Below are positions 6,554 to 63,737 of a stretch of 64,000 nucleotides of DNA, one piece after another; within the stretch, counting starts at the first letter, position 1, and each line of letters opens with the position of its first letter. A model generated the notes under the pieces. It was not told where the DNA came from, did no database searches, and saw only the letters and a program-made list of their open reading frames with translations. Origin of the DNA: Cupriavidus pauculus (GTDB lineage Bacteria > Pseudomonadota > Gammaproteobacteria > Burkholderiales > Burkholderiaceae); assembly GCF_003854935.1 (NCBI RefSeq), contig NZ_CP033969.1, positions 868,001-932,000 of the forward strand. Reading direction: 5' to 3'. The position numbers and the translations under genes are program-made.

Positions 6554-8068
6554 CTACGCCGCGTTGTCGGCCGCGGCGCGCGCGGCCGTGCGACCGGCGT
6601 GCCAGCGCAGCAGGCGCGGGATCACGACCACGCCGACGGTCATCGCCAGGATGGTGGCCGAGATCGGCTGCTTGACGAACAGGCTCCAGTCGCCCTGGCC
6701 AATGGACAGCGCGTTGCGAAGCTGCTTCTCGGCAATCGGCCCCAGGATCAGGCCGACGATGACCGGCGCGGTGGGAAAGTCGAACCGGCGCATCGCCATG
6801 CCCAGCAGGCCGATCACGAACAGCAGCAGCAGGTCGAACCACGACTGGCGGATGCCGTACGCGCCCAGCCCCGCGAAGATCAGGATGCCGCCGTACAGCA
6901 GCGGCGTCGGCACGCGCAGCATGCGCACCCACAGGCCGATGGCCGGCAGGTTCAGCACCAGCAGCATCACGTTGCCGATGTACAGCGACGCCAGCAGGCC
7001 CCAGACCAGGTCGCCCGAGGTCTGGAACAGCATCGGCCCCGGCTGCAGGTTGTAGTTCTGGAACGCCGCCAGCAGGATGGCCGTGGTGTTCGACGTCGGG
7101 ATGCCCAGCGTCAGCAGCGGCGCCAGCGTGGCGGTCACCGCCGCGTTGTTGGCCGCCTCCGGCCCAGCCACGCCCTCGATGGCGCCGACCTTGCCGAATT
7201 CGTCCTTGTGGTCGGACAGCTTCTTCTCGGCCGCATAGGACAGGAAGGTCGGGATCTCCGCGCCGCCGGCCGGGATCAGCCCGAACGGAAAGCCGATGAA
7301 CGTGCCGCGGATCCACGCCGGGATCGACCGCTTCCAGTCGGACTTGTTCATGTGCACCGAACTGAGCCGGTTGAACGTGCCGTCCGGCTGCGGGAAGAAC
7401 GCGTTGAACAGCGCCTCGCCCACCGCGAACAGGCCCACGGCCACCACCACGATGTCCACGCCGTCGTACAGCTCCTGGATGTTCATCGAATAGCGCGTCT
7501 GGCCCGACAGCGAGTCCATGCCGATCAGCCCGATACCCAGGCCCAGGAACAGGCTGGTCATGCCGCGCAGCAGCGACGAGCCCAGCACGGCCGATACCGT
7601 CGTGAACGCCAGCAGCATGATCATGAAGTACTCGCCCGGACCGAACTGCAGCGCCACGTCGGCCGCCACCGGCGCGAACATCGACAGCAGCACCGTGGCG
7701 ATCGTGCCGGCCACGAACGACCCGATGGCGGCCGTGGCCAGCGCCGGGCCGGCGCGGCCGTTCTTGGCCATCAGGTTGCCTTCCATCGCCGTGACCATGG
7801 TCGACGACTCGCCCGGCGTGTTCATCAGGATCGACGTGGTCGAGCCGCCGTACATGGCGCCGTAGTAGATGCCGGCGAACATGATCAGCGCGGCGGTGGG
7901 TTCCACCTTGGCCGTGAGCGGCAGCAGCATGGCCACAGTCAGCGCCGGGCCGATGCCGGGCAGCACGCCGATGGCGGTGCCCAGGAAGCAGCCGACCAGC
8001 GCCCACATCAGGTTGATCGGCGTGATGGCCACGGCAAAGCCGTGCATGAGCTGGTTCAGGGTATCCAT
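6554..8068 (-). CDS. tctA: Tripartite tricarboxylate transporter, large permease TctA
   Basis: A 504-aa inner-membrane protein with about 11-12 hydrophobic segments and the TctA hallmarks, including [17 protein letters not shown] near the N-terminus and the repeated GxxxGxxPG-type loops ([27 protein letters not shown]). It forms the sodium- or proton-driven permease with TctB and receives carboxylates from TctC. It is the last gene of tctCBA, 28 bp after tctB, with a GGGAGGA ribosome-binding site. The actual substrate (citrate, tartrate, an aromatic acid or other) cannot be read from the sequence. Confidence 0.93.
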
Positions 8069-20210: not shown

Positions 20211-21194
20211 CTATTGCAGGTCGTTGCGCAGGATCAGCAGCCACGGCATGTGCGAATTCGTGAAGCCGTCGAGCTGGCCCGCGTCGTTGAGGTCGATCAC
20301 GTCCATCGACACCGACTGCTGCACATTGCCGCCAATCGCCTTGACCACGTTGGCGGCCCGGTCGACCTCGACGACGATGTCGCAATGCATCGGCGTGGTG
20401 CCGAAGCCGATCTCGGACGGATCCGACAGGTATTTGTCGCGCCCGCGGCCGGCGCAGATCATGTCGCCGGGACGCGGCAGCCCGGGCACCGGTTCGACGT
20501 GGAACGCCGGGCGCGGCAAAATGCCGTCGCGCGCGTCCACCACGTACATCGAATGGGACTGGCCGGTCAGGAACTGGTCGTTGTCGAGCCCCGCCTTGCG
20601 CATGATCCAAGAGATGAACACGGCCGACCAGGCCCACGCGCCCTGCGTGACCTGCCGGCAGTCGGGCGCCTCGCCGACGATGCCCCAGTAGCGCTGGGCC
20701 ATGCGGCAGCCCTGAGGCGTGGCTTCCATGCCGGTGCCATCGGGAAATCGCAGGCATTCCGCGTCGCCATCGTTTTCCATGTCGACGTCGGCCGACGGCT
20801 GCGCGCCCGCGCCAATGCCCAGGCCATTGGCCGCCACGGCGGGCGCCGGAGCCGGCAGCGGGCTGTGCGTGACGCAGGCCGAATCGTCGCGGCCGATATG
20901 GACCACCTGGCTGCCCCATTTGCGCCACTCCTGCAGCGCGATATCGACGATCCGCTCGCGCGGCGTTGCGCCGGCGGGCGTGACCACGCGCTCGGGGTCG
21001 GGCAGGGCCGGGGCCTGCGGCCGCGCGGTACGTGGCGGCGCCGTGGTGCAACCGCACAGCACGGCCAGGGCAACCGCGGCCGTCAGCGTCTGCCAGCGAC
21101 GCTTCGGCGCCTGTGGAGAATGCTGTGGAAGCTTGTGTGAAAAGCGCTGTGAATAAGGCTGTGGAAATCTGCGCGCGAGCAATCGGTGCAACAT
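20211..21194 (-). CDS. DUF2272-family lipoprotein
   Basis: A 327-aa protein with a hydrophobic stretch ending in a lipobox (AVLCGC). The DUF2272 domain follows: RERIVDIALQEWRKWG, then WAWSAVFISWIMRKAG and PRPGDMICAGRG. The Cys/His-containing architecture resembles NlpC/P60-like papain folds (catalytic-looking Trp-Ser-Ala-Val-Phe and Pro-Gly-Asp blocks), but catalysis is unproven. The basic segment before the signal helix is unusually long (about 35 aa), and the DNA encoding it contains several DnaA-box-like sequences. A second ATG 30 bp upstream (21224) is possible. Confidence 0.75.
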   Translation of the reverse strand: MLHRLLARRFPQPYSQRFSHKLPQHSPQAPKRRWQTLTAAVALAVLCGCTTAPPRTARPQAPALPDPERVVTPAGATPRERIVDIALQEWRKWGSQVVHIGRDDSACVTHSPLPAPAPAVAANGLGIGAGAQPSADVDMENDGDAECLRFPDGTGMEATPQGCRMAQRYWGIVGEAPDCRQVTQGAWAWSAVFISWIMRKAGLDNDQFLTGQSHSMYVVDARDGILPRPAFHVEPVPGLPRPGDMICAGRGRDKYLSDPSEIGFGTTPMHCDIVVEVDRAANVVKAIGGNVQQSVSMDVIDLNDAGQLDGFTNSHMPWLLILRNDLQ

Positions 21195-21331: not shown

Positions 21332-21340
21332 TGTGGATAA
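21332..21340 (-). promoter_or_regulatory. Perfect DnaA box upstream of the DUF2272 gene
   Basis: TGTGGATAA on the plus strand is the exact complement of the R1-type box TTATCCACA. It lies between hupB and the DUF2272 gene. Near-matches follow inside that gene's first codons: TGTGGAGAA at 21112-21120 and TGTGAATAA at 21148-21156, each one base off. Confidence 0.6.
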
Positions 21341-21437: not shown

Positions 21438-21716
21438 TTACTGGTTCACAGCGTCCTTGAACTTCTGGCCTGCCTTGAACTTCACGGTCTTCGCAGCTTC
21501 CACCTTGATTTCTTCGCCGGTGCGCGGGTTGCGGGCCATGCGCTCGCCACGTTCGCCCTTGCTGAAGGTACCAAAGCCGATCAGGCTCAGGGTCTCGCCC
21601 TTGGCCACGGCATCCATGATGGCGTTCAGGGTCACGTTCAGGGCCTGTTCGGCCTTGGCCTTGGTCAGACCGTCCACACCGGCTGCGATCGCGTCGATCA
21701 GTTCGGTTTTCGTCAT
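21438..21716 (-). CDS. hupB: DNA-binding protein HU (beta type)
   Basis: The 92-aa nucleoid protein matches HU along its length: MTKTELIDAIA start, the dimer helices, GFGTFSKGERGERMARNPRTG (the beta arm with the DNA-kinking Pro) and KFKAGQKFKDAVN at the end. It bends DNA non-specifically, compacts the nucleoid and assists DnaA at origins. It faces away from the large regulatory block at 21.8-22.6 kb, which therefore includes its promoter. Confidence 0.95.
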   Translation of the reverse strand: MTKTELIDAIAAGVDGLTKAKAEQALNVTLNAIMDAVAKGETLSLIGFGTFSKGERGERMARNPRTGEEIKVEAAKTVKFKAGQKFKDAVNQ

Positions 21717-21980: not shown

Positions 21981-22536
21981 GTATACGCCCGCAGAGGGCC
22001 CCTGGCGCGCTTGAGGGCTTGCGACAGCCCGGAGGGTGTCCTGCGACGTATACGCCCCTGGAGGGCCCGCAGAAGGCGCGTATACCGCTGCGCAGGGAGC
22101 CGGGCGGGGTATACCGCCGACAACCGGGCAGCCACGTTCCGGCCTGCCCAAATTTTCATCGCGATCGATTTGCGCCAGATCCACCGGCGGGCCTGGCAGG
22201 TTGGCGTATACCGGGCCGGCTGCCTTCCTCCTCCGTATGGTTTACATCTTTCTTTTATGTATACGAATAGTAGTAACAGGTAAGCCACGCCCGTTTCTGT
22301 GGATAACCGCGTATACGCCAACGCAATCAAGCGTTTACGTATACCAAAACCCCGGGGACGGATTGTTGGCGGCGCGGGATGACTCATCCTTCCGGACGGG
22401 TTGAGGCACGTATACCGGTCGACTTGTTCGTATACGTTCCCCACGCCAGCCCCAGGCAACCCACACCAAACCCGCGCGCTTATCCACAAAAATCGCCCCG
22501 GTTATCCACATCGGTATACGTGCCCGATGCGTATAC
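21981..22536. repeat. Array of twelve GTATAC palindromes
   Basis: GTATAC begins at 21981, 22048, 22080, 22109, 22206, 22259, 22311, 22339, 22410, 22430, 22514 and 22531. Eleven of twelve have G or C on both sides, giving an 8-bp consensus SGTATACS, most often CGTATACG or CGTATACC. At about two-thirds GC I estimate one such hexamer per roughly 10 kb by chance. Several spacings are near 28-32 or 17-20 bp (about three or two helical turns), but the array is not strictly periodic. The hexamer is a subset of GTWWAC, an adenine-methylation motif I recall from Ralstonia and Burkholderia methylome work. Confidence 0.9.
22298..22510. promoter_or_regulatory. Three perfect DnaA boxes inside the GTATAC array
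   Basis: TTATCCACA occurs at 22480-22488 and 22502-22510 (same strand, 22 bp apart) and its complement TGTGGATAA at 22298-22306. All three match the nine-base consensus exactly. They flank or interleave with GTATAC sites, and the AT-rich island lies just to the left. DnaA may bind here either as a transcription factor for the SET gene or to be titrated. Confidence 0.75.
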
Positions 22537-22610: not shown

Positions 22611-23111
22611 ATGTCGGACAAGGCCACGGACGCCAAGAAGGGGAAGAAGACCGCCAGCGATCGCATCGAGGTGCGCCAGTCGGGCGTGCATGGCAAGGGC
22701 GTCTACGCGATCGGCGCGATTGCCGAAGGCGAGCGCGTGATCGAATACAAGGGCGAGCACATTTCCTGGAAAGAGGCGCTCAAGCGCCATCCGCACGATC
22801 CGGCCGACCCGAACCACACGTTCTATTTCAGCCTGGACGACGGCAACGTGATCGACGCCAAGTACGGCGGCAACCGCGCGCGCTGGATCAACCATGCGTG
22901 CGACCCGAACTGCGAGGCACGCGAGAAGAAGGGCCGCGTCTTCATCCACGCGCTGCGCGACATCGCGCCGGGCGAGGAGCTTTTCTATGACTACGGCCTG
23001 GTCATTGACGCGCGCTATACCAAGAAGCTGAAGAAGGAATACGAATGCCGCTGCGGCAGCCCCAAGTGCCGGGGCACGATGCTGGCGCCCAAGGACAAGC
23101 AGGGCAAGTAG
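22611..23111 (+). CDS. SET-domain protein-lysine methyltransferase
   Basis: The 166-aa protein is almost entirely a SET domain: a GVHGKGVYAIGAIAEGERVIEY start, the pseudoknot motif RWINHACDPNCE (91-102), the catalytic ELFYDYG (123-129) and a post-SET cysteine cluster ECRCGSPKC (145-153). Together with one upstream cysteine these could hold zinc. It should transfer methyl groups from S-adenosylmethionine to lysine on a protein; bacterial substrates are poorly known, and the neighbouring HU protein is a tempting candidate. The N-terminal 18 residues are Lys-rich. The ATG was chosen because similarity starts right after it. It is convergent with the tctE-like gene, 7 bp away. Confidence 0.88.
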   Translation: MSDKATDAKKGKKTASDRIEVRQSGVHGKGVYAIGAIAEGERVIEYKGEHISWKEALKRHPHDPADPNHTFYFSLDDGNVIDAKYGGNRARWINHACDPNCEAREKKGRVFIHALRDIAPGEELFYDYGLVIDARYTKKLKKEYECRCGSPKCRGTMLAPKDKQGK

Positions 23112-27187: not shown

Positions 27188-27226
27188 CCGCGTACCGTCA
27201 TCCACCCATGCAGGATTCTTGCAACC

Positions 27227-27706
27227 ATGCCTACTGCCCTTCTCGATCCCTACGACCTGGCCCTGCTGGCCGCGCTGCAGGCCGATGGCCGTTCCACCCA
27301 CCAGCAACTGGCCGAGCGGGTGCACCTGTCGCCCAGCCAGGTCGGGCGCCGGCTGGCCCGCCTGGAGACCGACGGGGTGATAACCGGCTACCGGGTCAAC
27401 CTGTCGCTGCCCGCGCTGGGGCTGGGTGTGATGGTGTTCATCAGCGTCAAGCTGGCCCACCACGGCGACACGATCATCGAGCGCTTTGGCGAGGAAATCA
27501 TGCTGCTGGAGGAGGTGCAGGAGTGCTACGCCGTGGCCGGCGAGGCCGACTACCTGATCCGCGTGGTCGTGCAGGACCTGCCGATGCTGGCCGATTTCAC
27601 GATGAAGCGGCTGATGCGGGTGCCGGGCGTGGAGAGCATTCGGTCCAACATCGTGCTTACCCCGCTCAAGAAGGAGGGACCGCTGCCGCTGGCCCATTTG
27701 CGCTAG
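27227..27706 (+). CDS. Lrp/AsnC-family transcriptional regulator, probably of phenylalanine hydroxylation
   Basis: The 159-aa protein has an N-terminal winged helix (LDPYDLALLAALQADGRSTHQQLAERVHLSPSQVGRRL) and a C-terminal RAM effector-binding domain ending near PGVESIRSNIVLTPLKK. Lrp proteins bind amino acids and assemble as octamers on divergent promoters. Placement back-to-back with phhA-phhB makes phenylalanine or tyrosine the likely effector, which is inference. The ATG at 27227 was chosen as the family start; the open frame extends 21 codons upstream without similarity and across the -10 element. Confidence 0.88.
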   Translation: MPTALLDPYDLALLAALQADGRSTHQQLAERVHLSPSQVGRRLARLETDGVITGYRVNLSLPALGLGVMVFISVKLAHHGDTIIERFGEEIMLLEEVQECYAVAGEADYLIRVVVQDLPMLADFTMKRLMRVPGVESIRSNIVLTPLKKEGPLPLAHLR

Positions 27707-27798
27707 AACGGCGGTTCGTTCTGCCGAAATGTGCAGAGGCTTGCGCTTGCCACGGGCGCATGTCACCCTCGCGCGGAGCCAATTCGGGAGAAGGCAGC

Positions 27799-30700
27799 AT
27801 GATCGGGAGGATCGCCACGGTAGCCGCGGCCGCCGCAGCAGGTCTCGTTTTCAGCGCACTGACATGGGCGCCGGCCGCCACGGCCGCGCAGATCACGCGC
27901 TTTTCGCCCGAGGGGGTGAATCCGCAGGTCCGCCAGGTGGCCATCCGCTTCGACGAACCGATGGTGCCGATGGGCGACCTCAAGGCCCAGGCGCCGGCCA
28001 CGGTGTCCTGCACCGGCGGCGCGGTGGGCGGCAGCGGCCGCTGGGTCAACGCCAGCAACTGGGTCTACGACTTCGAGCGCGACTTGCCGCCCGGCGTGCG
28101 CTGCGCCGTGCAGGTGGTGCCCGGGCTCAAGAGCGTGGCCGGCAAGGCGTACGCGGGCAAGGGCGAGTACCGGTTCGAAACCGGCGGCCCGGTCGTGATC
28201 TCGGCGCGGCCGTCGGGCGGCGAGATCGAGGAAGACCAGGTGTTTGCGCTGCGTTTCAATGGCGCCGCCACGGCCGGATCGATCCGCAGCCACGCCTGGT
28301 GCCAGGCCGAGGGCCTGGGCGAGCGCATCCCCGTGCGGCTGCTGACCGGCAAGGAGCGCGACGGCGTGATCGAGGCGCTGCACTGGAAGGAAGTGGTCAA
28401 GCGCGACGCCGACGCCGTGCACCTGCTGACCTGCCAGCAGCGCCTGCCAGCCGGCGCGCGGATGCAGCTCGTGCTGGACGCCGGCATCGCCACACCTTCC
28501 GGCCTGGCCACCACGGCGGCGCGCCGCTTCGATTTTCAGGTGCGGGAGCCGTTCACCGCCGGCTTCACCTGCGAGCGCGAGCGGGCCGAGGCCCCCTGCA
28601 CCCCGCTGCGGCCGATGACCGTCACGTTCACGGCGCCCATCGCACGCAAGGCCGCCGCGCAGATCGTGCTCAAGACGCCAGCCGGCAGCCAGGCGCCCGC
28701 CTTCGATCCCGACGACGCCCCGGACGCACCCGTTTCCAGCGTGACGTTCAAGGGTCCGTTTCCCGAGAAGGCCAGCCTGACCATCGAGGCGCCGCGCGAT
28801 CTCAAGGACGAGAGCGGCCGCGCGCTGGCCAATGCCGACCTGTTTCCGATCAAGCTGACCACGGCCGCGCTGCCGCCGCTGGCCAAGTTCGCCGCCGCGC
28901 CGTTCGGCGTGGTCGAGCGCTTTGCGGACCTGCCGCGCGGCAAGTCGCCGAACGACTATCCACCGCTGCTGCCCGTGACGCTGCGCAATGTCGAAGCCGA
29001 CCTGCCGGCGCTGGCCGTGCGCGCGCAGCCGGGCACCGTGGCGCGGCTCAAGGTGGATGACGACGGCGCCATCCTGCGCTGGTTCGGCATGGTCAAGCGC
29101 ATGCACGAGAACACCTGGACGCGCGAGCAGCTTGCGGCCATCCGCGCCGGACAGCCGCCGTACAAGGTACGCGTGCCGCGCAACGCGCCGGCCATCGAGA
29201 CGCGCTCGGTGTCGCTGCTCGAAGGCGTGCCCGGCGCCGGCAAGCTGGCCATCCCGAAATCGACGGACACCACGCCGCGCCCGTTCGAGGTGGTCGGCAT
29301 CCCGCTGCCCGAACCGGGCTTCCACGTCGTGGAAATCGCCTCGCCGATGCTGGGCGCGGCGCTGCTCGGCAAGCCGGTGCCGATGTACGTGCGCACCGCC
29401 GCGCTGGTCACCAATCTGGGCGTCCACTTCAAGCTGGCGCGCGGCGAGGGCGACGGCGACATGAGCGGCCTGGCCTGGGTGACGGGGCTGGACGACGGCA
29501 AGCCCGTTGCCAACGCCCGCGTGGCCGTGCGCAGCTGCGACGGCACGCTGCTGGGCCAGGGCACCACCGACGCCACCGGCGTCGCGCGCTTTGCGAAGCT
29601 GCCGGACCGCCGCTACGAAGACTGCGACAACGGCATGGAGGGCTACTTCGTGTCGGCCCGCATCGGCGCCGATCATCCGCAGGCGCGCGGCAAGGCCGAC
29701 ATGGCGTTCGTCATGTCGAACTGGAACCGCGGCATCGAGACGTGGCGCTTCAACGTGCCCACCGACCTGAGCCCGCAGCAGACCGTGCGCGCCCATACCG
29801 TGTTCGACCGTACGCTGCTGCGCGCGGGCGAGACCGTGTCGATGAAGCACCTGATCCGCAACGAGACCTCGCAGGGCTTTGCGCTGCCGCAGGCCATGCC
29901 GACGCAGCTCGTGATCACGCACGAGGGCACCGGCCAGACGTACGAGATGCCGCTGGCGTGGCGCACCACGGCCACGGGCGGACGCAGTGCCGAGAACGCG
30001 TTCCAGGTGCCGGCATCGGCCAAGCTCGGCGTCTACGACGTGGCGCTGGTCTACGGCGACGGCCGCACGCTCTCAAGCGGCGGCTTCCGCGTGGAGGCGT
30101 TCCGCCTGCCGGTGCTGGCCGGCACGCTGTCGGTGGCCAAGGACCCGAAGGCGAAAGGCAACGCGCTGGTCGCCCCGGCCGAGGTGCCGGTGGGCGTGGA
30201 GATCCACTACCTGAACGGCGGCGGCGCGGCCGGGCTGCCGGTGCGGCTGTCGGCGCTGATGCGCAACAAGTCGGTGAACTTTGCCGACTACGACGAGTTC
30301 TCGTTCGACGTCCCGCGCGCGGCGCAGCAGAGCAGCAGCGGCGACGAGGAAGAGGACGAGGCGTCGTCGCCCGACGCATCCGAAAAGCTGGTGGCCGACA
30401 AGCTGCCGCTGACGCTGGACAAGGACGGCAACGGCAAGCTGACGGTCAAGGACCTGCCGAAGGTGGACGCGCCGCGCGACCTCGTGCTGGAGGCCGGCTT
30501 TGCCGATCCGAACGGCGAGATCCAGACGCTGCGGCAGACCGTGCCGCTGTGGCCGTCGGCCGTGGTGGTGGGCATCCGCGCGGCCAACTGGGTATCGGTC
30601 AGCCAGAAGCTGGCCGTGCAGGCCGTGGTGCTGGACACGCAGGGCAAGCCCGTGGCCGAGTCGCCGGTGCAGATCAAGGCCCGCGCGCGCATCACCACGT

Positions 30701-33700
30701 CGGCGCGCAAGCGCGTGGTCGGGGGCTTCTACCGCTACGACAACCGCAGCGAGACCAAGGACCTGGGCGTGGTGTGCGATGCGCGCACCGACGCGCAGGG
30801 CCGGGCGCGCTGCGACGTGGCGCTGTCGCAGGCTGGCGAGGTGGAGCTGGTGGCCAGCGCGCGCGACAGCGACGGCCGCGCGGCGCAGGCCGCCACCACG
30901 GTGTGGGTCACCCGCCAGGGTGAACTCTGGTTCGGCGGCGAGAACCACGACCGTATGGACGTGCTGCCCGAGAAGAAGTCGTACGCGCCCGGCGACACCG
31001 CCGTGTTCCAGGTGCGCATGCCGTTCCGCCGCGCCACGGCGCTGGTGGCGGTGGAGCGCGAAGGCATCCTCGACACGCAGGTCGTCGAACTGAACGGCAG
31101 CGATCCGACGATCAAGCTCAAGGTCAAGCCCGAGTGGGGGCCGAACGTCTACGTGTCGGTGCTGAGCCTGCGCGGCCGCCTGCGCGAGGTGCCGTGGTAC
31201 TCGTTCTTCCAGTGGGGCTGGCGCCAGCCGATGGACTGGTGGCGCGCGTTCCGCAGCGAAGGGCGCGAGTACGTGGCGCCGTCGCCGCTGGTGGACCTGT
31301 CCAAGCCCGCGTTCCGCCTGGGGCTGGCGCAGATCCGCGTCGGCAGCGACGCCTACCGGCTGGACGTCTCGGTGACGCCGGACAAGGCCAGCTATCCGGT
31401 GCGCGGCCGCGCCCGCGTGACGGTGCAGGTCAAGCTGCCCGACGGCAAGCCGGCCGCCAATGGCGAAGTGGCGCTGGCCGCCGTCGACCAGGCGCTGCTG
31501 GAGCTGATGCCGAACGCGAGCTGGAACCTGCTCGACGCGATGGTCCGGCCGCGCAGCTACGGCGTGGAGACGTCGACGGCCCAGATGGAAATCATCGGGC
31601 GCCGCCACTATGGCCGCAAGGCCGTGCCGGCCGGCGGCGGTGGCGGCAAGAGCCCCACGCGCGAACTGTTCGACACGCTGCTGCTGTGGAACCCGCGCGT
31701 GCAGCTCGACGCCGAGGGCAAGGCCGCGCTGGAGGTGCCGCTCAACGACTCGCTGACGAGTTTCCGCATCGTGGCCGTGGCCGACCTGGGCGTGAACCGC
31801 TTTGGCAGCGGCAGCGCGACGATCGCCGCGACGCAGGACCTGCAGATGATCTCGGGCCTGCCGCCCCTGGTGCGCGAGGACGACCGCTATCGCGCGATGT
31901 TCACGCTGCGCAACACCACCCAGCGCGCGATGACCGTGGAAGCCATCGCGCGCGCCACGCTGGTCGACGCCCAGGCGCTGCCAGCCCAGACCGTGCAGAT
32001 TCCGGCCGGCGAGGCGCGCGAGATTGGCTGGGACGTCACCGCGCCCGCGCTGCTGGCGTTCAGCCGCGCCGGGACCGTGATGTGGGAGGTAGCCGCGGCC
32101 GAGAAGGGCACGGGCGGCGCCAGCGACAAGCTCAAGATCGCGCAGCAGATCGTGCCGGCCGTGCCCGTGACCGTGCAGCAGGCCACGCTGGCGCAACTGA
32201 CGCCGAACCTGTCGGTGCCGGTGCAGGCGCCGGCCGGCGCGCTGGCCGATCCGTCGGGCCGGCTGCGCGGCGGCATGCAGGTGTCGGTGCAGTCGTCGCT
32301 GGCCGGCGGCATGCCGGGCGTGCGCGAATGGTTCCGCGTCTATCCGTACAGTTGCCTGGAGCAGCGCTCGTCGAAATCGCTCGGCATGGGCGACGCGGCC
32401 GCGTGGGATGCGCTGATGGCGCAGCTGCCGTCGTACCTGGACACCGACGGGCTGGCCGCGTACTACCCGCTGGCGAGCGACAGCGCACGCGGCAGCGAGG
32501 TGCTGACGGCCTACCTGCTGGCCATCTCCGACGAGGCGTCGCGCGCGGGCCTGCCGATGCGGATTCCGGACGCGCAGCGCGCGCAGATGGAGCGCGGCCT
32601 GGCCGCCTTTGTCGAGGGCCGCATCGCGCCGCCGCGCTGGGCGCCGGCGTCGGCGTCGATGGACCTCGACGTGCGCAAGCTGGCCGCCATCGAGGCGCTG
32701 TCGCGGACCGGCAAGGCCCAGGCGCGCATGCTCGGGTCGATCCAGATCCTGCCCGAGCAGTGGCCCACGTCGGCGCTGATCGACTGGCTCGGCATCCTGT
32801 CGCGCGTGCAGGACATCCCCGAGCGCGACAAGCGCATGGCCGATGCCACGCAGTTGCTGCGCAGCCGCCTCACCGTGCAGGGCACGCGGCTGGTGTTCTC
32901 GACCGAGCGCAGCGACAACTGGTGGTGGCTGATGTCTGGCGGCGACGTCAATGCGGCGAAGCTGCTGGCGCTGGCGTCGCAGCTCCCGGCCTGGAAGGAC
33001 GATGTGCCGCAGCTGGTGACCGGCCTGCTGGGCCGCCAGACGCGCGGCGCGTGGATGACGACCACGGCCAACGCCTGGGGCGTGATGGCGATCCGCCGCT
33101 ACGCGCAGGTCTACGAGAAGACGCCGGTGGCCGGCACGGTGCACGCCACGCTTGGCGATGCCTCGCGCACGTTCGACTGGGCGAAGGCCGCGCGGCAGGA
33201 CGGCGTGGCCAGCGGCATGGTCGACCTGCCCTGGCCGGCGGCTGCTTCCGGTACGCCCGGTGCGCCGGCCCCGCTGCAGGTGGATCAGCAGGGCGCGGGC
33301 CGGCCGTGGGCCACGGTTCGCGCGCTGGCCGCCGTGCCGCTGCGCGAACCGGTGGCGGCCGGGTATCGCATCCGCCGCACCGTGACGCCGGTGGAGCAGG
33401 CGGTGGCGGGCAAGTGGTCGCGCGGCGACACGTACCGCGTGCGGCTCGACATCGACGCGCAGGCCGACATGACGATGGTGGTGGTCAGCGACCCGGTGCC
33501 GACCGGCGCGACGATCCTGGGCAGCGGGCTTGGCCGCGATTCGGTCATCGCCACGCGCGACCAGAAGTCGGCATGGTCGGACTTCGTCGAACGCACGCCG
33601 GAAGCCTATCGCGAGTACTTCGGCTTTGTGCCGAAGGGGACGCTGGCCGTGGAGTACACGGTGCGGCTCAACAATGCCGGCGAGTTCGCGCTGCCGCCGA

Positions 33701-33780
33701 GCCGCGTGGAGGCGATGTATGCGCCCGACGTGTTCGGCGAGACGCCCAACGCCAGGCTGACCGTGGGGGCCGCCAAGTGA
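27799..33780 (+). CDS. Alpha-2-macroglobulin family protein (YfhM/YfaS-like)
   Basis: The 1993-aa envelope protein starts with a signal peptide (1-31, AATAA) lacking a lipobox Cys, so it is probably soluble in the periplasm. It continues with many beta-sandwich macroglobulin domains, the MG-type stretch DLSPQQTVRAHTVFDRTLLRAGETVSMKHL, an acidic insert near residue 850 (SSGDEEEDEASS), and the thioester motif CLEQ (Cys1519 to Gln1522). A2Ms trap proteases through a bait region and a thioester. The partner PbpC gene lies in the same unit, as in E. coli yfhM-pbpC. The start is supported by GGGAGAAGG; the longer open frame upstream overlaps the lrp gene. Confidence 0.93.
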   Translation: MIGRIATVAAAAAAGLVFSALTWAPAATAAQITRFSPEGVNPQVRQVAIRFDEPMVPMGDLKAQAPATVSCTGGAVGGSGRWVNASNWVYDFERDLPPGVRCAVQVVPGLKSVAGKAYAGKGEYRFETGGPVVISARPSGGEIEEDQVFALRFNGAATAGSIRSHAWCQAEGLGERIPVRLLTGKERDGVIEALHWKEVVKRDADAVHLLTCQQRLPAGARMQLVLDAGIATPSGLATTAARRFDFQVREPFTAGFTCERERAEAPCTPLRPMTVTFTAPIARKAAAQIVLKTPAGSQAPAFDPDDAPDAPVSSVTFKGPFPEKASLTIEAPRDLKDESGRALANADLFPIKLTTAALPPLAKFAAAPFGVVERFADLPRGKSPNDYPPLLPVTLRNVEADLPALAVRAQPGTVARLKVDDDGAILRWFGMVKRMHENTWTREQLAAIRAGQPPYKVRVPRNAPAIETRSVSLLEGVPGAGKLAIPKSTDTTPRPFEVVGIPLPEPGFHVVEIASPMLGAALLGKPVPMYVRTAALVTNLGVHFKLARGEGDGDMSGLAWVTGLDDGKPVANARVAVRSCDGTLLGQGTTDATGVARFAKLPDRRYEDCDNGMEGYFVSARIGADHPQARGKADMAFVMSNWNRGIETWRFNVPTDLSPQQTVRAHTVFDRTLLRAGETVSMKHLIRNETSQGFALPQAMPTQLVITHEGTGQTYEMPLAWRTTATGGRSAENAFQVPASAKLGVYDVALVYGDGRTLSSGGFRVEAFRLPVLAGTLSVAKDPKAKGNALVAPAEVPVGVEIHYLNGGGAAGLPVRLSALMRNKSVNFADYDEFSFDVPRAAQQSSSGDEEEDEASSPDASEKLVADKLPLTLDKDGNGKLTVKDLPKVDAPRDLVLEAGFADPNGEIQTLRQTVPLWPSAVVVGIRAANWVSVSQKLAVQAVVLDTQGKPVAESPVQIKARARITTSARKRVVGGFYRYDNRSETKDLGVVCDARTDAQGRARCDVALSQAGEVELVASARDSDGRAAQAATTVWVTRQGELWFGGENHDRMDVLPEKKSYAPGDTAVFQVRMPFRRATALVAVEREGILDTQVVELNGSDPTIKLKVKPEWGPNVYVSVLSLRGRLREVPWYSFFQWGWRQPMDWWRAFRSEGREYVAPSPLVDLSKPAFRLGLAQIRVGSDAYRLDVSVTPDKASYPVRGRARVTVQVKLPDGKPAANGEVALAAVDQALLELMPNASWNLLDAMVRPRSYGVETSTAQMEIIGRRHYGRKAVPAGGGGGKSPTRELFDTLLLWNPRVQLDAEGKAALEVPLNDSLTSFRIVAVADLGVNRFGSGSATIAATQDLQMISGLPPLVREDDRYRAMFTLRNTTQRAMTVEAIARATLVDAQALPAQTVQIPAGEAREIGWDVTAPALLAFSRAGTVMWEVAAAEKGTGGASDKLKIAQQIVPAVPVTVQQATLAQLTPNLSVPVQAPAGALADPSGRLRGGMQVSVQSSLAGGMPGVREWFRVYPYSCLEQRSSKSLGMGDAAAWDALMAQLPSYLDTDGLAAYYPLASDSARGSEVLTAYLLAISDEASRAGLPMRIPDAQRAQMERGLAAFVEGRIAPPRWAPASASMDLDVRKLAAIEALSRTGKAQARMLGSIQILPEQWPTSALIDWLGILSRVQDIPERDKRMADATQLLRSRLTVQGTRLVFSTERSDNWWWLMSGGDVNAAKLLALASQLPAWKDDVPQLVTGLLGRQTRGAWMTTTANAWGVMAIRRYAQVYEKTPVAGTVHATLGDASRTFDWAKAARQDGVASGMVDLPWPAAASGTPGAPAPLQVDQQGAGRPWATVRALAAVPLREPVAAGYRIRRTVTPVEQAVAGKWSRGDTYRVRLDIDAQADMTMVVVSDPVPTGATILGSGLGRDSVIATRDQKSAWSDFVERTPEAYREYFGFVPKGTLAVEYTVRLNNAGEFALPPSRVEAMYAPDVFGETPNARLTVGAAK

Positions 33781-56934: not shown

Positions 56935-56962
56935 ACCGGCTACGTATACGTCATGAAAATAG

Positions 56963-56986
56963 CGGCGCCATCTTGGCGCCGTTTTC
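56963..56986 (+). terminator. Rho-independent terminator of the second HAAT operon
   Basis: An 8-bp stem CGGCGCCA / TGGCGCCG with a TCT loop is followed by TTTTC. A GTATAC site lies just before it (56944-56949). Confidence 0.9.
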
Positions 56987-57015
56987 TATTCATGCAGCCG
57001 ATCTTGTTCACACTT

Positions 57016-57034
57016 TTATCCACAGTGTGGATAA
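57016..57034. promoter_or_regulatory. Head-to-head pair of perfect DnaA boxes
   Basis: TTATCCACA (57016-57024) and TGTGGATAA (57026-57034) face each other with one base between, forming a 19-bp palindrome. It lies between the livF terminator and the end of the convergent LysR gene. It could bind DnaA or act as a bidirectional hairpin; no T-tract follows on the plus strand. Confidence 0.55.
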
Positions 57035-57037
57035 GCC

Positions 57038-57958
57038 TCAGCGCATCAGTGCGGCGATATCGGTGGCGGCAACTCCCAGCAGCCAGGAACGGAAGGCCGC
57101 CAGGGCCGGATGGTCACGCTTTTCGCGCGGCGCGCAGAGGAAATATCCCCGGCTCAGCGTGATGGGCAGGTCGAACGGCGCCACCACCTGACCGGCCTGC
57201 AACGCATCCCTGACAAGGCATCGCTGCAAAACGGCCACGCCCATATCGGCCTTCACGGCCTCCAGCAAAATCGACACCTGGTCGAAGCCGCGCGCCAGGG
57301 TGGGCGCAGCATCGGGTACGCCCGCGGCCTGCAGCCAGTGCTGCCAGTTCCTGGGGGCAGTTGTGTGGAAAAGTAGCGGTTCGGCCATCAGGTCGGCCGG
57401 AGTTTTCCACAGATGCGCGGCCTGCCGTGCGTGGGCGCGGGCGGGGTGGCAGATGGGCACCATTTCGCGGCCGATCACGTAATCCACCTGCCAGCCTGAC
57501 CACTGGCTGGCCTCGCCGGTCAGGATGGCGGCGTCCGGCCGGGCACCCGAAAAATCCTCCTCGCGGCGGTACGGGACGAAGTCCAGCTGGATGTCCGGAT
57601 GCTGGCGATGGAAGTCGGGCAGGCGGGGCACGAGCCATACGCTGGCCAGCGTCGGCACGGCGGAAAGCGTCAGATGGTGGCGCCGATCCTCGCCGAACAT
57701 GGCGGCGCTGGCGGTCTCCAAGGCGGCCAGCGGATCGGCGATGGCGTCCAGATAGGCGCGCCCCGCCTCGGTTAGCGTCAGGCGGTGGGCATTGCGATGG
57801 ACCAGCGGCTGGCCGAAATGGGCCTCCAGCCGGGCGATGGCGCGACTGATGGCGCCCTGGGTCACGCACAGCGTTTCAGCCGCCCGCGTGAAGCTGCCCA
57901 GCCGCGCGGCCGTTGCAAACGCGTGCAGTTCCGACATCGAAGGAGACCGTATACGCAT
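57038..57958 (-). CDS. LysR-family regulator (GcvA-like)
   Basis: The 306-aa regulator has the N-terminal winged helix (LHAFATAARLGSFTRAAETLCVTQGAISRAIARLE) and a two-lobe effector domain (LTLSAVPTLASVWLVPRLPDFHRQHPDIQLDFV). It is divergent from a tctC-hutG pair and probably controls it. The first ATG (57958) gives a normal GcvA-type start (MRIRSPSMSELHAF); a second in-frame ATG at 57937 is possible. Its codons 2-4 contain a GTATAC site (57949-57954). Confidence 0.9.
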   Translation of the reverse strand: MRIRSPSMSELHAFATAARLGSFTRAAETLCVTQGAISRAIARLEAHFGQPLVHRNAHRLTLTEAGRAYLDAIADPLAALETASAAMFGEDRRHHLTLSAVPTLASVWLVPRLPDFHRQHPDIQLDFVPYRREEDFSGARPDAAILTGEASQWSGWQVDYVIGREMVPICHPARAHARQAAHLWKTPADLMAEPLLFHTTAPRNWQHWLQAAGVPDAAPTLARGFDQVSILLEAVKADMGVAVLQRCLVRDALQAGQVVAPFDLPITLSRGYFLCAPREKRDHPALAAFRSWLLGVAATDIAALMR

Positions 57959-58007
57959 AGCCGCCGAGCATGATCTTTGGTAATGGAAGCGTGCAATATA
58001 GTCGTTT

Positions 58008-58034
58008 GTGTCGGACCGGTAAACTCTCCGACAC
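58008..58034. promoter_or_regulatory. Candidate LysR operator in the divergent tctC promoter
   Basis: GTGTCGGA (58008-58015) and TCCGACAC (58027-58034) form a perfect 8-8 inverted repeat with an 11-bp spacer, the geometry of LysR recognition sites. It lies 51 bp before tctC and 50 bp before the LysR start. The spacer contains GTAAAC (58019-58024), a GTWWAC-type site. Confidence 0.75.
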
Positions 58035-60025: not shown

Positions 60026-60054
60026 GGCCCCGTGCAAACGGGGCCTTGTTGTTT
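60026..60054 (+). terminator. Rho-independent terminator of the tctC-hutG unit
   Basis: An 8-bp stem GGCCCCGT / ACGGGGCC with a GCAA loop is followed by a T-rich tract (TTGTTGTTT). It lies between parS sites 1 and 2. Confidence 0.9.
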
Positions 60055-60062
60055 CCGGATGG

Positions 60063-60078
60063 TGTTTCACGTGGAACA
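60063..60078. promoter_or_regulatory. parS site 2 (one-base variant)
   Basis: TGTTTCACGTGGAACA differs from the perfect palindrome at one base, a variant also accepted by ParB in other bacteria. Confidence 0.9.
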
Positions 60079-60110
60079 CGCTTTGTGCCGCCGGCATACC
60101 TTGGCGCCCA

Positions 60111-60126
60111 TGTTTCACGTGAAACA
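60111..60126. promoter_or_regulatory. parS site 3 (perfect)
   Basis: TGTTTCACGTGAAACA, a perfect 16-bp palindrome, lies 88 bp before the mnmG start. Binding of ParB here could influence the mnmG promoter, whose -10 candidate is at 60162. Confidence 0.97.
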
Positions 60127-60161
60127 CTTGCCACGGCCGACGATCCCAAATCGATTGCCGC

Positions 60162-60167
60162 TATAAT
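60162..60167 (+). promoter_or_regulatory. Candidate -10 element of mnmG
   Basis: TATAAT lies 47 bp before the mnmG ATG and 36 bp after parS site 3. No clear -35 sits at 17 bp. Confidence 0.55.
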
Positions 60168-60213
60168 TCGGCATCCCGTATTTTCCCGCCCAGCCTCCCG
60201 GAGGAGGTGTCCC

Positions 60214-62169
60214 ATGCTTTACCCGAAAGAATTCGACGTCATAGTCGTCGGCGGTGGTCACGCCGGCACCGAAGCCGCCCTGGCTGCCGCAAGGATGGGC
60301 TGCCAGACGCTGCTGCTCACGCACAACATCGAAACGTTGGGCCAGATGAGCTGCAATCCGTCGATTGGCGGCATCGGCAAGGGGCATCTGGTCAAGGAAG
60401 TGGACGCCATGGGCGGCGCGATGGCTGCCGCCACCGACGAGGCGGGCATCCAGTTCCGGATTCTGAATTCCAGCAAGGGGCCGGCCGTCCGCGCGACGCG
60501 CGCCCAGGCCGACCGGGTGCTGTATCGCAAGGCCATCCGCACGCGGCTGGAGAACCAGCCGAACCTGATGCTGTTTCAGCAGGCCGTGGATGACCTGATG
60601 GTCGAGGGCGACCGCGTGGTCGGCGCCCGTACCCAGGCTGGCATCGACTTCCGGGCCCGCGCCGTGGTGCTGACGGCCGGTACGTTCCTGGACGGCAAGA
60701 TCCACGTCGGGCTGGACAACTACACGGGCGGACGTGCCGGCGACCCGGCAGCCGTCTCGCTGTCCGCGCGGCTCAAGGAGCTGAAGCTGCCGCAAGGCCG
60801 CCTGAAGACCGGCACGCCGCCGCGCATCGACGGCCGCACCATCGACTTTTCGGTGATGGAAGAGCAGCCGGGCGATCTGGATCCGGTGCCGGTGTTCTCC
60901 TTCCTGGGCAACCCCGCCCAGCACCCGCAGCAACTGCCGTGCTGGATCACCCATACCAACAGCCGTACGCACGACATCATCCGGGGCGGCCTGGACCGTT
61001 CGCCGATGTACACGGGCGTGATCGAAGGGGTAGGGCCGCGGTACTGTCCTAGCATCGAGGACAAGATCCATCGCTTTTCGAGCAAGGAAAGCCACCAGAT
61101 CTTCCTGGAGCCGGAAGGGCTGACGACCAACGAGTTCTACCCGAATGGCATCTCGACGAGCCTGCCGTTTGACGTCCAGCTCGATCTCGTCCACTCGATC
61201 CGAGGCATGGAGAACGCGCACATCCTGCGCCCGGGCTACGCCATCGAGTACGACTACTTCGACCCGCGCGGGCTCAAGGCGTCGCTGGAAAGCAAGGCGA
61301 TCTCGGGCCTGTTCTTCGCCGGCCAGATCAACGGCACCACCGGCTACGAGGAAGCTGCCGCGCAGGGGCTGCTGGCCGGGATCAACGCTGGCTGCTACGT
61401 GCGCGAGCGCGATGCCTGGACACCGCGCCGCGACCAGGCATACCTGGGCGTGCTGGTCGACGACCTGATCACGCGCGGGGTGACCGAGCCGTACCGCATG
61501 TTCACGAGCCGGGCGGAATTCCGCCTGAGCCTGCGCGAAGACAACGCCGACATGCGCCTGACCGAAGTGGGCCGGGAGCTGGGCGTGGTGGACGACGTCC
61601 GGTGGGACGCCTTCAACCGCAAGCGCGACGCTGTTTCACGTGAAACAGAGCGGCTCAAGAGTACCTGGGTCAACCCGACGCTGCTGCCGGAAGCCGACGC
61701 CGTGCCGCTGCTGGGCAAGGCCATCGAGCGTGAATACTCGCTGGCCGATCTGCTGCGCCGCCCGGAAGTCCGCTATGAGGCGCTGGTCGCCATGCAGGAC
61801 GGCAAGTACGCCCCCGAGGCACCGCTGGCCGACGATGCCATGCTGGCCGAGCAGATCCGCGAGCAGATCGAGATCGGCATCAAGTATCACGGCTATATCG
61901 CGCGCCAGGCAGCCGAGGTGGACAAGCTGGAAGCCAACGAGGCCACCCGGCTGCCGCTGGACTTTGACTACACCGAGGTGCGCGGGCTGGGCTTCGAGGT
62001 CAGCCAGAAGCTGAACCAGCATCGGCCGGAAACGCTGGGCCAGGCCTCGCGCATCTCGGGCGTGACGCCGGCGGCGATCTCGCTGCTGCTGGTCCACCTG
62101 AAGAAGAAGGGCATGGGGCGCGCCGCGCCGGCGGCAGCAAAGTCCGGTGACGGTCAGGAGGCTGCCTGA
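60214..62169 (+). CDS. mnmG: tRNA uridine-5-carboxymethylaminomethyl modification enzyme MnmG (GidA)
   Basis: The 651-aa FAD enzyme, with MnmE, modifies U34 of several tRNAs. Visible motifs are the FAD site [52 protein letters not shown]-like [13 protein letters not shown], the [13 protein letters not shown] loop, and the C-terminal helical domain. The ATG at 60214 follows GGAGGAGGTG. A perfect parS lies inside the gene (61632-61647) and encodes residues around VSRET. The rsmG GTG follows the stop directly. Confidence 0.97.
61632..61647. promoter_or_regulatory. parS site 4, inside mnmG
   Basis: A perfect TGTTTCACGTGAAACA lies in the mnmG coding sequence around codons 473-478. The reading frame tolerates it as Val-Ser-Arg-Glu-Thr. 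Confidence 0.97.
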
Positions 62170-62877
62170 GTGGGTGGCTACCGTTACACCGTGACCGACG
62201 AGGCGGCGCAGCGCAAGCGTCTTGAAGCGGGGCTCGATGCGATCGGGCTGGCGCTGTCGCCAACCCAGGTCGACACGCTGTTCGCGTACCTGACGCTGCT
62301 GCGCAAATGGAACAGCGTCTACAACCTCACCGCCATCCGTCATCCTGACGAGATGCTGACCCACCACCTGCTGGACTCGCTGGCTGCCGTGCCGGCGCTG
62401 GCCGACGCCGCGCGCGTCGCATCCGTACCCGACGCTGCGCGGGGCAGGGTGCTGGACGTGGGCTCGGGCGGCGGCATGCCGGGCATGCCGCTGGCCATCG
62501 CGTGCCCGGACGTGTCGGTGTTGATGGTCGACATCGTCCAGAAAAAGACCGCTTTCCTGACCCAGTGTCGCGCCCAGTTGCGCCTGACCAATGCGGCTGC
62601 ACACTGGGGGCCTGTGGAGAAGATCGAGGATGCCGCCGGGTACGCCGTGATTACGTCGCGCGCGTTTGCCGAGCTGACCGACTTCGTGAACCTGTCCGGC
62701 CATCTGGTGGCACCGGGCGGCCGCTTGCTGGCGATGAAGGGTGTCTATCCGCAGGCCGAGATCGACCGCATGGCCGCGGCGGGGCTGATGGAAACGTGGC
62801 AGGTGGAAGCCGTGACCAAGCTCAACGTACCAGAGCTGGATGCGGAGCGGCACATCGTCGCCATATCACGACGTTGA
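62170..62877 (+). CDS. rsmG: 16S rRNA (guanine527-N7)-methyltransferase RsmG (GidB)
   Basis: The 235-aa SAM-dependent enzyme methylates G527 of 16S rRNA; loss can give low-level streptomycin resistance. Motifs include LRKWNSVYNLTAIRHPDEMLTHHLLDSL, the SAM loop VLDVGSGGGMPGMPLAIACP and VITSRAFAELTDFV. The GTG start abuts the mnmG stop, indicating translational coupling; an in-frame GTG a few codons later is possible. Confidence 0.95.
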   Translation: MGGYRYTVTDEAAQRKRLEAGLDAIGLALSPTQVDTLFAYLTLLRKWNSVYNLTAIRHPDEMLTHHLLDSLAAVPALADAARVASVPDAARGRVLDVGSGGGMPGMPLAIACPDVSVLMVDIVQKKTAFLTQCRAQLRLTNAAAHWGPVEKIEDAAGYAVITSRAFAELTDFVNLSGHLVAPGGRLLAMKGVYPQAEIDRMAAAGLMETWQVEAVTKLNVPELDAERHIVAISRR

Positions 62878-62963
62878 ATCGTCAAAGCTGTAAATTTGAA
62901 AATGTCATTCATCTGATGAATATGAGTGGCGAAAAACTGGGCAAACAGGAGCTGCTAGCGCTT

Positions 62964-63737
62964 ATGGCCAAGGTATTCGTGATCGCCAACCAGAAGGGTG
63001 GTGTGGGCAAGACCACCACGACGGTGAACCTGGCCGCCGGTCTGGCCGCGCAGGACCAGCGGGTGCTGCTGGTCGACCTGGATCCCCAGGGCAACGCATC
63101 GATGGGCTCGGGCATCGACAAGCAGTCGCTGGAACACAGCGTGTACCAGGTGCTGCTGGGGCTGGCGTCGGTGCCGCAGGCGCGCCAGCGGTCGGAAGCC
63201 GGACGCTACGACGTGCTGCCGGCCAACCGCGAACTGGCCGGCGCCGAAGTCGAACTGGTGGATCTGGACCAGCGCGAGCGCCGGCTCAAGCAGGCGCTGG
63301 CCGAGGTGGACGACCAGTACGACTTCGTGCTGATCGACTGCCCGCCGTCGCTGTCGCTGCTGACCCTGAACGGCCTGTGCGCGGCGCACGGCGTGATCGT
63401 GCCGATGCAGTGCGAGTACTTCGCGCTGGAGGGGCTATCCGACCTGGTCAACACGATCAAACAGGTGCACGCGAACCTGAACCGCGACCTGAAGGTGATT
63501 GGCCTGCTGCGCGTGATGTTCGATCCGCGCGTGACGCTGCAGCAGCAGGTGTCGGCCCAGCTTGAGGCGCATTTCGCGGAGAAGGTCTTCAAGACCGTGA
63601 TCCCGCGCAATGTGCGGCTGGCCGAGGCGCCGTCGTACGGCATGCCCGGCGTGGCATTCGATGCGTCCTCCAAGGGCGCCAAGGCGTATCTCGATTTCGG
63701 CGCGGAGATGATCGCGCGCGTCCGCCAGCTCGGTTGA
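62964..63737 (+). CDS. parA: Chromosome-partitioning ATPase ParA (Soj)
   Basis: The 257-aa deviant-Walker ATPase starts MAKVFVIANQKGGVGKTTTTVNLAAG, with the P-loop KGGVGKTT, Walker A' LLVDLDPQGNASMG and Walker B VLIDCPPSLS. It is of the short chromosomal type without an HTH extension. The ATG at 62964 matches family starts; CAGGAG lies 12 bases upstream. Earlier ATGs at 62916 and 62922 would add 14-16 residues. ParB follows after 32 bp. Confidence 0.95.
   Translation: MAKVFVIANQKGGVGKTTTTVNLAAGLAAQDQRVLLVDLDPQGNASMGSGIDKQSLEHSVYQVLLGLASVPQARQRSEAGRYDVLPANRELAGAEVELVDLDQRERRLKQALAEVDDQYDFVLIDCPPSLSLLTLNGLCAAHGVIVPMQCEYFALEGLSDLVNTIKQVHANLNRDLKVIGLLRVMFDPRVTLQQQVSAQLEAHFAEKVFKTVIPRNVRLAEAPSYGMPGVAFDASSKGAKAYLDFGAEMIARVRQLG

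Follow-up and report, generated by a model that had tools for sequence, protein, structure and literature searches.

What is the function of a short block between two genes in which one palindromic hexamer recurs a dozen times among perfect DnaA boxes, and could replication of the main chromosome of Cupriavidus pauculus start there? In this work we have examined such a block in a window of 64,000 nucleotides, by which we mean the whole stretch C2:868001-932000 of C2, the 3.63-Mb main chromosome in a four-contig assembly of a 6.18-Mb genome; positions given without a contig are those of the window. A preliminary description had reported twelve GTATAC, eleven of them with G or C on both sides, and three perfect DnaA boxes at 21981-22536, and our recount agrees on every figure, the site without such flanks being that at 22259. 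Together with two GTTTAC (at 22240 and 22333) the array holds 14 copies of the wider motif GTWWAC. It is flanked by an HU gene and a SET gene which are transcribed away from each other, and Pfam bears out the identity proposed for both neighbours. The block and its surroundings contain the following features:

21148..21156, minus strand: outlying DnaA box TTATTCACA, just beyond the array (motif search)
21332..21340, minus strand: outlying perfect DnaA box, just beyond the array (motif search)
21438..21716, minus strand: hupB-like HU gene, divergent neighbour (Pfam Bac_DNA_binding, 1.7e-29)
21981..22536: GTWWAC array, 12 GTATAC and 2 GTTTAC in 556 bp (motif count)
22225..22284: AT-richest 60 bp of the array interval, 65% AT (composition scan)
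22298..22306, minus strand: perfect DnaA box TTATCCACA, belonging to the module described below (motif search)
22480..22488, plus strand: perfect DnaA box TTATCCACA (motif search)
22502..22510, plus strand: perfect DnaA box TTATCCACA (motif search)
22611..23111, plus strand: SET-domain gene, divergent neighbour (Pfam SET, 3.6e-24)

The background of one GTATAC per 10 kb assumed at first was too high: the genome holds 103 in 6.18 Mb, i.e. one per 60 kb, an expectation of about 0.009 per 556 bp. The window as a whole contains 15, against a mean of 1.64 and a maximum of 4 in shuffled sequences, and within the surrounding 800 kb the array is the densest place for GTWWAC, the runner-up having 6 per equal length. 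The three perfect DnaA boxes lie within 213 bp (22298-22510). The AT-rich island of the preliminary description is real and rare, since 65% AT is reached by 0.04% of the 60-mers in the 800 kb, and it is the likely unwinding element. A known structured RNA was ruled out as the identity of the block, which has no Rfam match at gathering score. Three other places in the genome were recorded. At C2:1093587-1093609 (locus L028, whose first 10 kb have no Rfam match) three GTATAC fall within 23 bp before an apparent strong promoter. In the window at 56944-58024, back-to-back perfect DnaA boxes (57016, 57026) are accompanied by GTATAC at 56944 and 57949, GTAAAC at 58019 and a TctC-family gene, and a TctC gene is one of the five loci with multiple GTWWAC in Ralstonia solanacearum (PMC5390034). 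Finally, a plus-strand open frame of 2190 aa at 27208-33780, with a marginal NCBIfam match only, could represent a large protein of unfamiliar type or not be a gene at all.

Does the block contain anything that looks like the core of an origin? Using 19 array-side copies, that of C. pauculus among them, we built R1, a model based on sequence alone, which describes a 90-bp module in which the minus strand reads, in order, DnaA box, spacer, trio run TTACTACTATTC, GTATAC, A-rich tract and GTAAACC:

22226..22315, minus strand: candidate core origin module (R1, 80.3 bits, the sole R1 match in the window)
22240..22245: GTAAAC, read on the minus strand, ending the A-rich tract (alignment)
22259..22264: GTATAC immediately past the trios, a position shared by most alignment rows (alignment)
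22265..22276, minus strand: DnaA-trio run TTA-CTA-CTA-TTC (alignment)

This order resembles the basal unwinding system (PMC8287927, PMC6669920), in which a DnaA box is followed by a run of 3'-GAT-5' trios, and, by the strand convention published for it, at least three trio motifs of the form 3'-NAN-5' follow the box here (22265-22276). It differs from that system in the GTWWAC sites which bracket the trios and the A-rich tract and in its longer spacer, which measures 21 nt in C. pauculus and 18 in many genus copies and exceeds, at the module box, the 16 bp or less given in the passages of those sources; a degenerate DnaA box may lie nearer the trios.

The module is widespread. R1 matched all 56 genomes of the genus and 135 of 151 in the family (E 0.01 or better, some weak). 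We assigned the groups called Cupriavidus and Ralstonia here through named loci, by gene order and near sequence; the other group names are guesses. Among named-genome loci located via SET, of which we took the best 80 of more, R1 found a match in 54 and none in 26, the latter being, going by their titles, for the most part more distant relatives such as Rubrivivax, Roseateles and Piscinibacter. The module stands beside SET in all 13 Cupriavidus-type named loci (L274-L286); in other genera it lies between different genes than HU and SET. An inverted pair of modules some 3.0-3.5 kb apart occurs in 19 of the 80 loci, mostly Paraburkholderia, and a twentieth apparent pair, in L276, is a weak match within that locus's own array. 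In Paraburkholderia solitsugae (L335:3504-3583 and 6660-6742) the two inverted modules lie 3 kb apart around genes for an Na/H exchanger and a GCS2 glutamate-cysteine ligase.

We then asked which sequence is kept in the array. In 23 of 24 genus loci, 10-19 GTWWAC adjoin SET (0.5-1.3 expected); the exception is G147, where the array is 4.2 kb further from SET and still adjoins HU, as it does in all 24 loci examined, G177 and G147 included. Eight Ralstonia-like loci have 2-3 GTWWAC together with 3-5 DnaA boxes. Over 22 genus intervals (two of the 24 were left out) we counted 340 GTWWAC against 1-20 each for seven other WW palindromes, and all four W forms are present, with 217 GTATAC and 5 GTTAAC among them. 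The preliminary description had proposed, as a check, to look for conservation of the sites against turnover of the flanking sequence, and such conservation is seen: in a comparison with eight close relatives, the site is retained in 92 of 112 site-genome pairs, against 404 of 2984 background hexamers of the same span (13.5%), a contrast inflated by an aligner that is drawn to conserved motifs. GTATAC itself can be ruled out as the selected sequence, since relatives with 4-10 GTATAC still hold 10-19 GTWWAC, and the wider motif is therefore what is selected.

A motif kept in this way suggests an enzyme that acts on it. GTWWAC had been named in the preliminary description as methylated in relatives, and the literature agrees: its methylation by a conserved orphan enzyme has been published for Ralstonia (PMC5390034) and Burkholderia cenocepacia, and in C. 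necator H16 the motif has been reported as methylated, with 95.3% of sites detected (PMC6742796). C. pauculus has an N6_N4_Mtase protein of 308 aa, placed between trpB and trpA by reading of the open frames. Strong matches to it occur in all 24 genus genomes examined, and matches, a few of them weak, in at least 170 of 201 family genomes. This protein is most likely the GTWWAC enzyme, its specificity being taken from the papers on relatives. The sites follow the enzyme: in the 601 bp around the module, ten enzyme-positive genomes from eight other genera have 52 GTWWAC (5.9 expected) and 22 enzyme-negative genomes from two genera have 13 (18.9 expected), a contrast favoured by the training of R1 on GTWWAC-bearing copies and by the choice of the ten positives from its better matches. 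The negative set comprised 24 genomes, of which G187 has no module and G169 was left out; for nine of the 22, negative means that no methyltransferase is among the matches listed, and as the set spans two genera the enzyme may have been lost just once or twice. Two or more trio units and a DnaA box with no more than one mismatch are nevertheless retained in the module of all 22. Since the sites are at chance without the enzyme while the module persists, it is probably methylation of the origin that is the target of selection.

In Escherichia coli, the sites of the orphan methyltransferase Dam (GATC) are crowded at oriC. The preliminary description had drawn this comparison and its idea stands, for here too methylation sites crowd at what reads best as an origin and an orphan adenine methyltransferase is present. 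The motif and the enzyme are different ones, however, and the part of the comparison that concerns SeqA fails: a search of the C. pauculus genome for a SeqA homologue (PF03925) found none and detected the E. coli control.

Could GTWWAC then be the binding site of a separate protein, a repressor or a helper of the initiator, with its methylation incidental? Such a protein would be compatible with an origin at this place or with none. The dominance of GTATAC (217 of 340) and the scarcity of GTTAAC would suit a binding site, as would the absence of SeqA, the reader known from E. coli; on the other hand, all four W forms are found, and the loss of the sites to chance level in genomes without the methyltransferase, although the module stays, is hard to reconcile with incidental methylation. 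We regard this explanation as possible but rather unlikely.

Our preferred reading, which we consider likely, is that the array block is the oriC of the 3.63-Mb main chromosome and is controlled by methylation through GTWWAC. Of the three functions first suggested for the block, origin is thus the best supported, the methylation switch survives as its likely layer of control, and DnaA titration becomes a rival to be weighed below. We hypothesize that DnaA would bind the boxes, load along the minus-strand trio repeats and open the A-rich tract that GTATAC and GTAAAC enclose. The orphan adenine methyltransferase, with the trpB-trpA protein as candidate, would methylate GTWWAC on both strands in C. 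pauculus as in its relatives. Most likely, the hemimethylated array would mark a freshly fired origin just after replication, and hemimethylation would delay or gate the next firing via a reader protein other than SeqA. It counts against such a role that a mutant of the GTWWAC enzyme in B. cenocepacia has been described with unchanged exponential growth, though with larger nucleoids.

Does the position of the array on the chromosome accord with an origin? The cumulative GC skew of C. pauculus, followed over 590-1390 kb of the 3.63-Mb C2 and hence local to the 800 kb covered, reaches its lowest value at 888-890 kb, where the array lies, and dnaA is found at 789 kb, 101 kb away. The following features lie 38 kb from the array, two of the four parS-like sites being perfect to the consensus used:

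59995, 60063, 60111 and 61632 (to 61647), i.e. C2 927995, 928063, 928111 and 929632: four parS-like sites
60046..63737, plus strand: gidA (mnmG), gidB (rsmG) and parA

Four other genomes also have a local skew minimum no more than about 15 kb from the array or module: G177 (minimum in the 190-200 kb bins, array at 185.4 kb, dnaA at 339 kb), G147 (minimum at 180 kb, array at 177.9 kb, dnaA at 286 kb; local only, with the wrong skew sign over the contig's initial 42 kb), G065 (minimum in the 60-70 kb bins, array at 57 kb, in 100 kb read, dnaA lying outside) and the Burkholderia-like G105 (minimum in the 70 kb bin, module at 66.2 kb, dnaA at 303 kb, 236 kb away). In the Ralstonia-like G139 the skew drops to the module (3516 kb) and stays flat onward to dnaA; it bottoms out at 3570 kb, some 50 kb away from the module, and does not decide between module and dnaA. 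Strand-skewed 8-mers, selected from flanking parts of the same chromosome, change direction at the C. pauculus array (98:198 before, 340:67 after) but are near balance at 1020-1100 kb (206:196).

Is it possible that the true origin lies in the dnaA-rpmH interval and that the array is a DnaA-titration or control site of the datA type? A genome paper puts the origin of C. necator NH9 chromosome 1 with dnaA; upstream of C. pauculus dnaA there are three DnaA boxes, of which one is perfect and two have a single mismatch, together with 4 GTWWAC; and the G139 skew favours neither place over the other. The KOPS-like motif GGGNAGGG, an E. coli-based guess, also bears on this question. In none of the five genomes examined does its polarity switch at the module, across which the main polarity runs unchanged. 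The switch lies at 775-779 kb in C. pauculus, beside dnaA, with motifs 21:1 forward from dnaA to the array; it is near dnaA in G139 as well, at about 285-294 kb in G177, between array and dnaA, and at neither module nor dnaA in G105. This polarity counts against our reading and, for some of the genomes, favours an origin close to dnaA, and because it is unswitched at the module in all five, we have placed less confidence in an origin at the array and more in one at dnaA. At C2:779000-890000 the KOPS-like motifs are strongly opposite to the direction which GC skew predicts; they may record an older arrangement. The 8-mers disagree with the dnaA interval in that they turn at the array, and GC skew has no turn at dnaA in C. 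pauculus or in G105, where the sign is the same on both sides, while the turn seen there in G177 is of the wrong sense, a maximum. There is no R1 match at C. pauculus dnaA. In Polynucleobacter-like genomes (g11) the module lies about 1.6 kb into contigs apparently beginning at dnaA, before the apparent start of dnaN, both gene calls resting on position and a short peptide. Since it thus stands just behind the apparent dnaA, the element is constant and its distance from dnaA variable. Taken together, we hold an origin in the dnaA-rpmH interval to be unlikely.

GTWWAC sites upstream of dnaA were considered separately as a second mark common to the genus. Thirty such promoter loci were taken, and of the 26 that remained after three too short and L119 were left out, 10 have at least two GTWWAC, one has one and 15 have none, which rules the idea out. 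In G177, eight lie upstream of dnaA (C1:337467-337866, in L181).

The place of the array between HU and SET raises another question: might it be a methylation-controlled divergent promoter of these genes with no role in replication, as has been proposed for R. solanacearum? The R. solanacearum HU-SET cluster (Erill 2017, PMC5390034) shares with our block the gene pair, the motif and the methylation there of its sites, and its three conserved methylated GTWWAC lie over predicted -35 boxes in the interval; that HU adjoins the array throughout the genus loci would agree with such a role. The three sites are taken as promoter control in the passages of that study, which make no origin call, whereas the 14 sites of C. 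pauculus are accompanied by DnaA boxes and trios. A promoter would leave these boxes and trios, and the skew, unexplained; moreover, the G147 array is 4.2 kb away from SET, and in other genera the module lies between other genes, in the Polynucleobacter-like genomes before the apparent dnaN. We therefore find it improbable that the array is a promoter element and nothing else.

Could the chromosome have more than one module of this kind? R1 found exactly two copies in 53 of the 56 genomes of the genus, a single copy in each of G153 and G084, and three in G183, where the third is weak and lies inside the array. The second copy of C. pauculus lies 130 kb from the first, beside tag, the gene for 3-methyladenine glycosylase:

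C2:1020404-1020621 (L024:10404-10621): second module, 6 GTWWAC, beside tag and inverted relative to the array (R1)

Second copies, which were left out of the training of R1, are present in 54 of 56 genus genomes and lie in all 54 within 7.6 kb of tag, on the strand opposite to it. Where both copies share a contig they are inverted in 33 of 33 cases and 130-220 kb apart in 32 of them; the G223 pair lies 3.93 Mb apart on its linearised contig. Twelve genus second copies have 6-12 GTWWAC per surrounding 1 kb (0.3-0.6 expected), and in these twelve the DnaA box ends in G (T in G065) and not in A. The corresponding distant copy of two Ralstonia-like genomes has 0-1 GTWWAC. Over the half of the interval nearest the second module there is no clear leading-strand skew in C. 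pauculus, G177 and G147, as would be seen under converging forks, but past the second module of G147 the skew has the wrong sign. It may be that the main chromosome of the genus carries two methylation-marked origin modules, opposed and 130-220 kb apart, the tag-side one, with its slightly weakened DnaA box, firing in some cells or setting the timing of the other; we offer this with considerable doubt.

Parts of this picture have been described before. On chromosome 1 of C. metallidurans CH34 the skew transition lies about 90 kb from dnaA, a stretch of 213 nt with three perfect DnaA boxes precedes it, and an additional cluster of boxes lies about 130 kb from it (Janssen 2010, PMC2864759). The boxes of C. 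pauculus at 22298-22510 span exactly 213 nt and the distance to its second module matches that of the CH34 cluster; the passages of PMC2864759 on CH34 differ in that they mention neither a GTATAC array nor trios, nor methylation or a second module. In B. cenocepacia, methylation of CACAG and GTWWAC at origins has been reported, and replication is bidirectional from the predicted region, the exact origin of c1 being uncertain (PMC7364216, PMC4948915); our array shares GTWWAC with these origins, but CACAG is the enriched motif there, and an array of such size is not described in the passages of those papers. Skew and boxes in C. metallidurans and a methylated HU/SET cluster in Ralstonia are thus already published. 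A search of the open-licence literature found no report joining array, origin and enzyme in Cupriavidus, nor one of the second module.

To our knowledge, control of replication by methylation is known in depth solely for Dam with GATC and CcrM with GANTC. If our reading is correct, the main chromosome of C. pauculus would have an origin crowded with the sites of an orphan methyltransferase other than these two, conserved over much of the family and down to chance frequency in genomes that lack the enzyme. A function would thereby be given to an enzyme which the Ralstonia paper treats chiefly as a regulator of promoters, and on many of these chromosomes the origin would lie far from dnaA. The conserved second module raises the testable question of whether there are one or two start sites, and if there are two, the pair of modules and the orphan GTWWAC methyltransferase would represent control of replication by methylation that has evolved independently.
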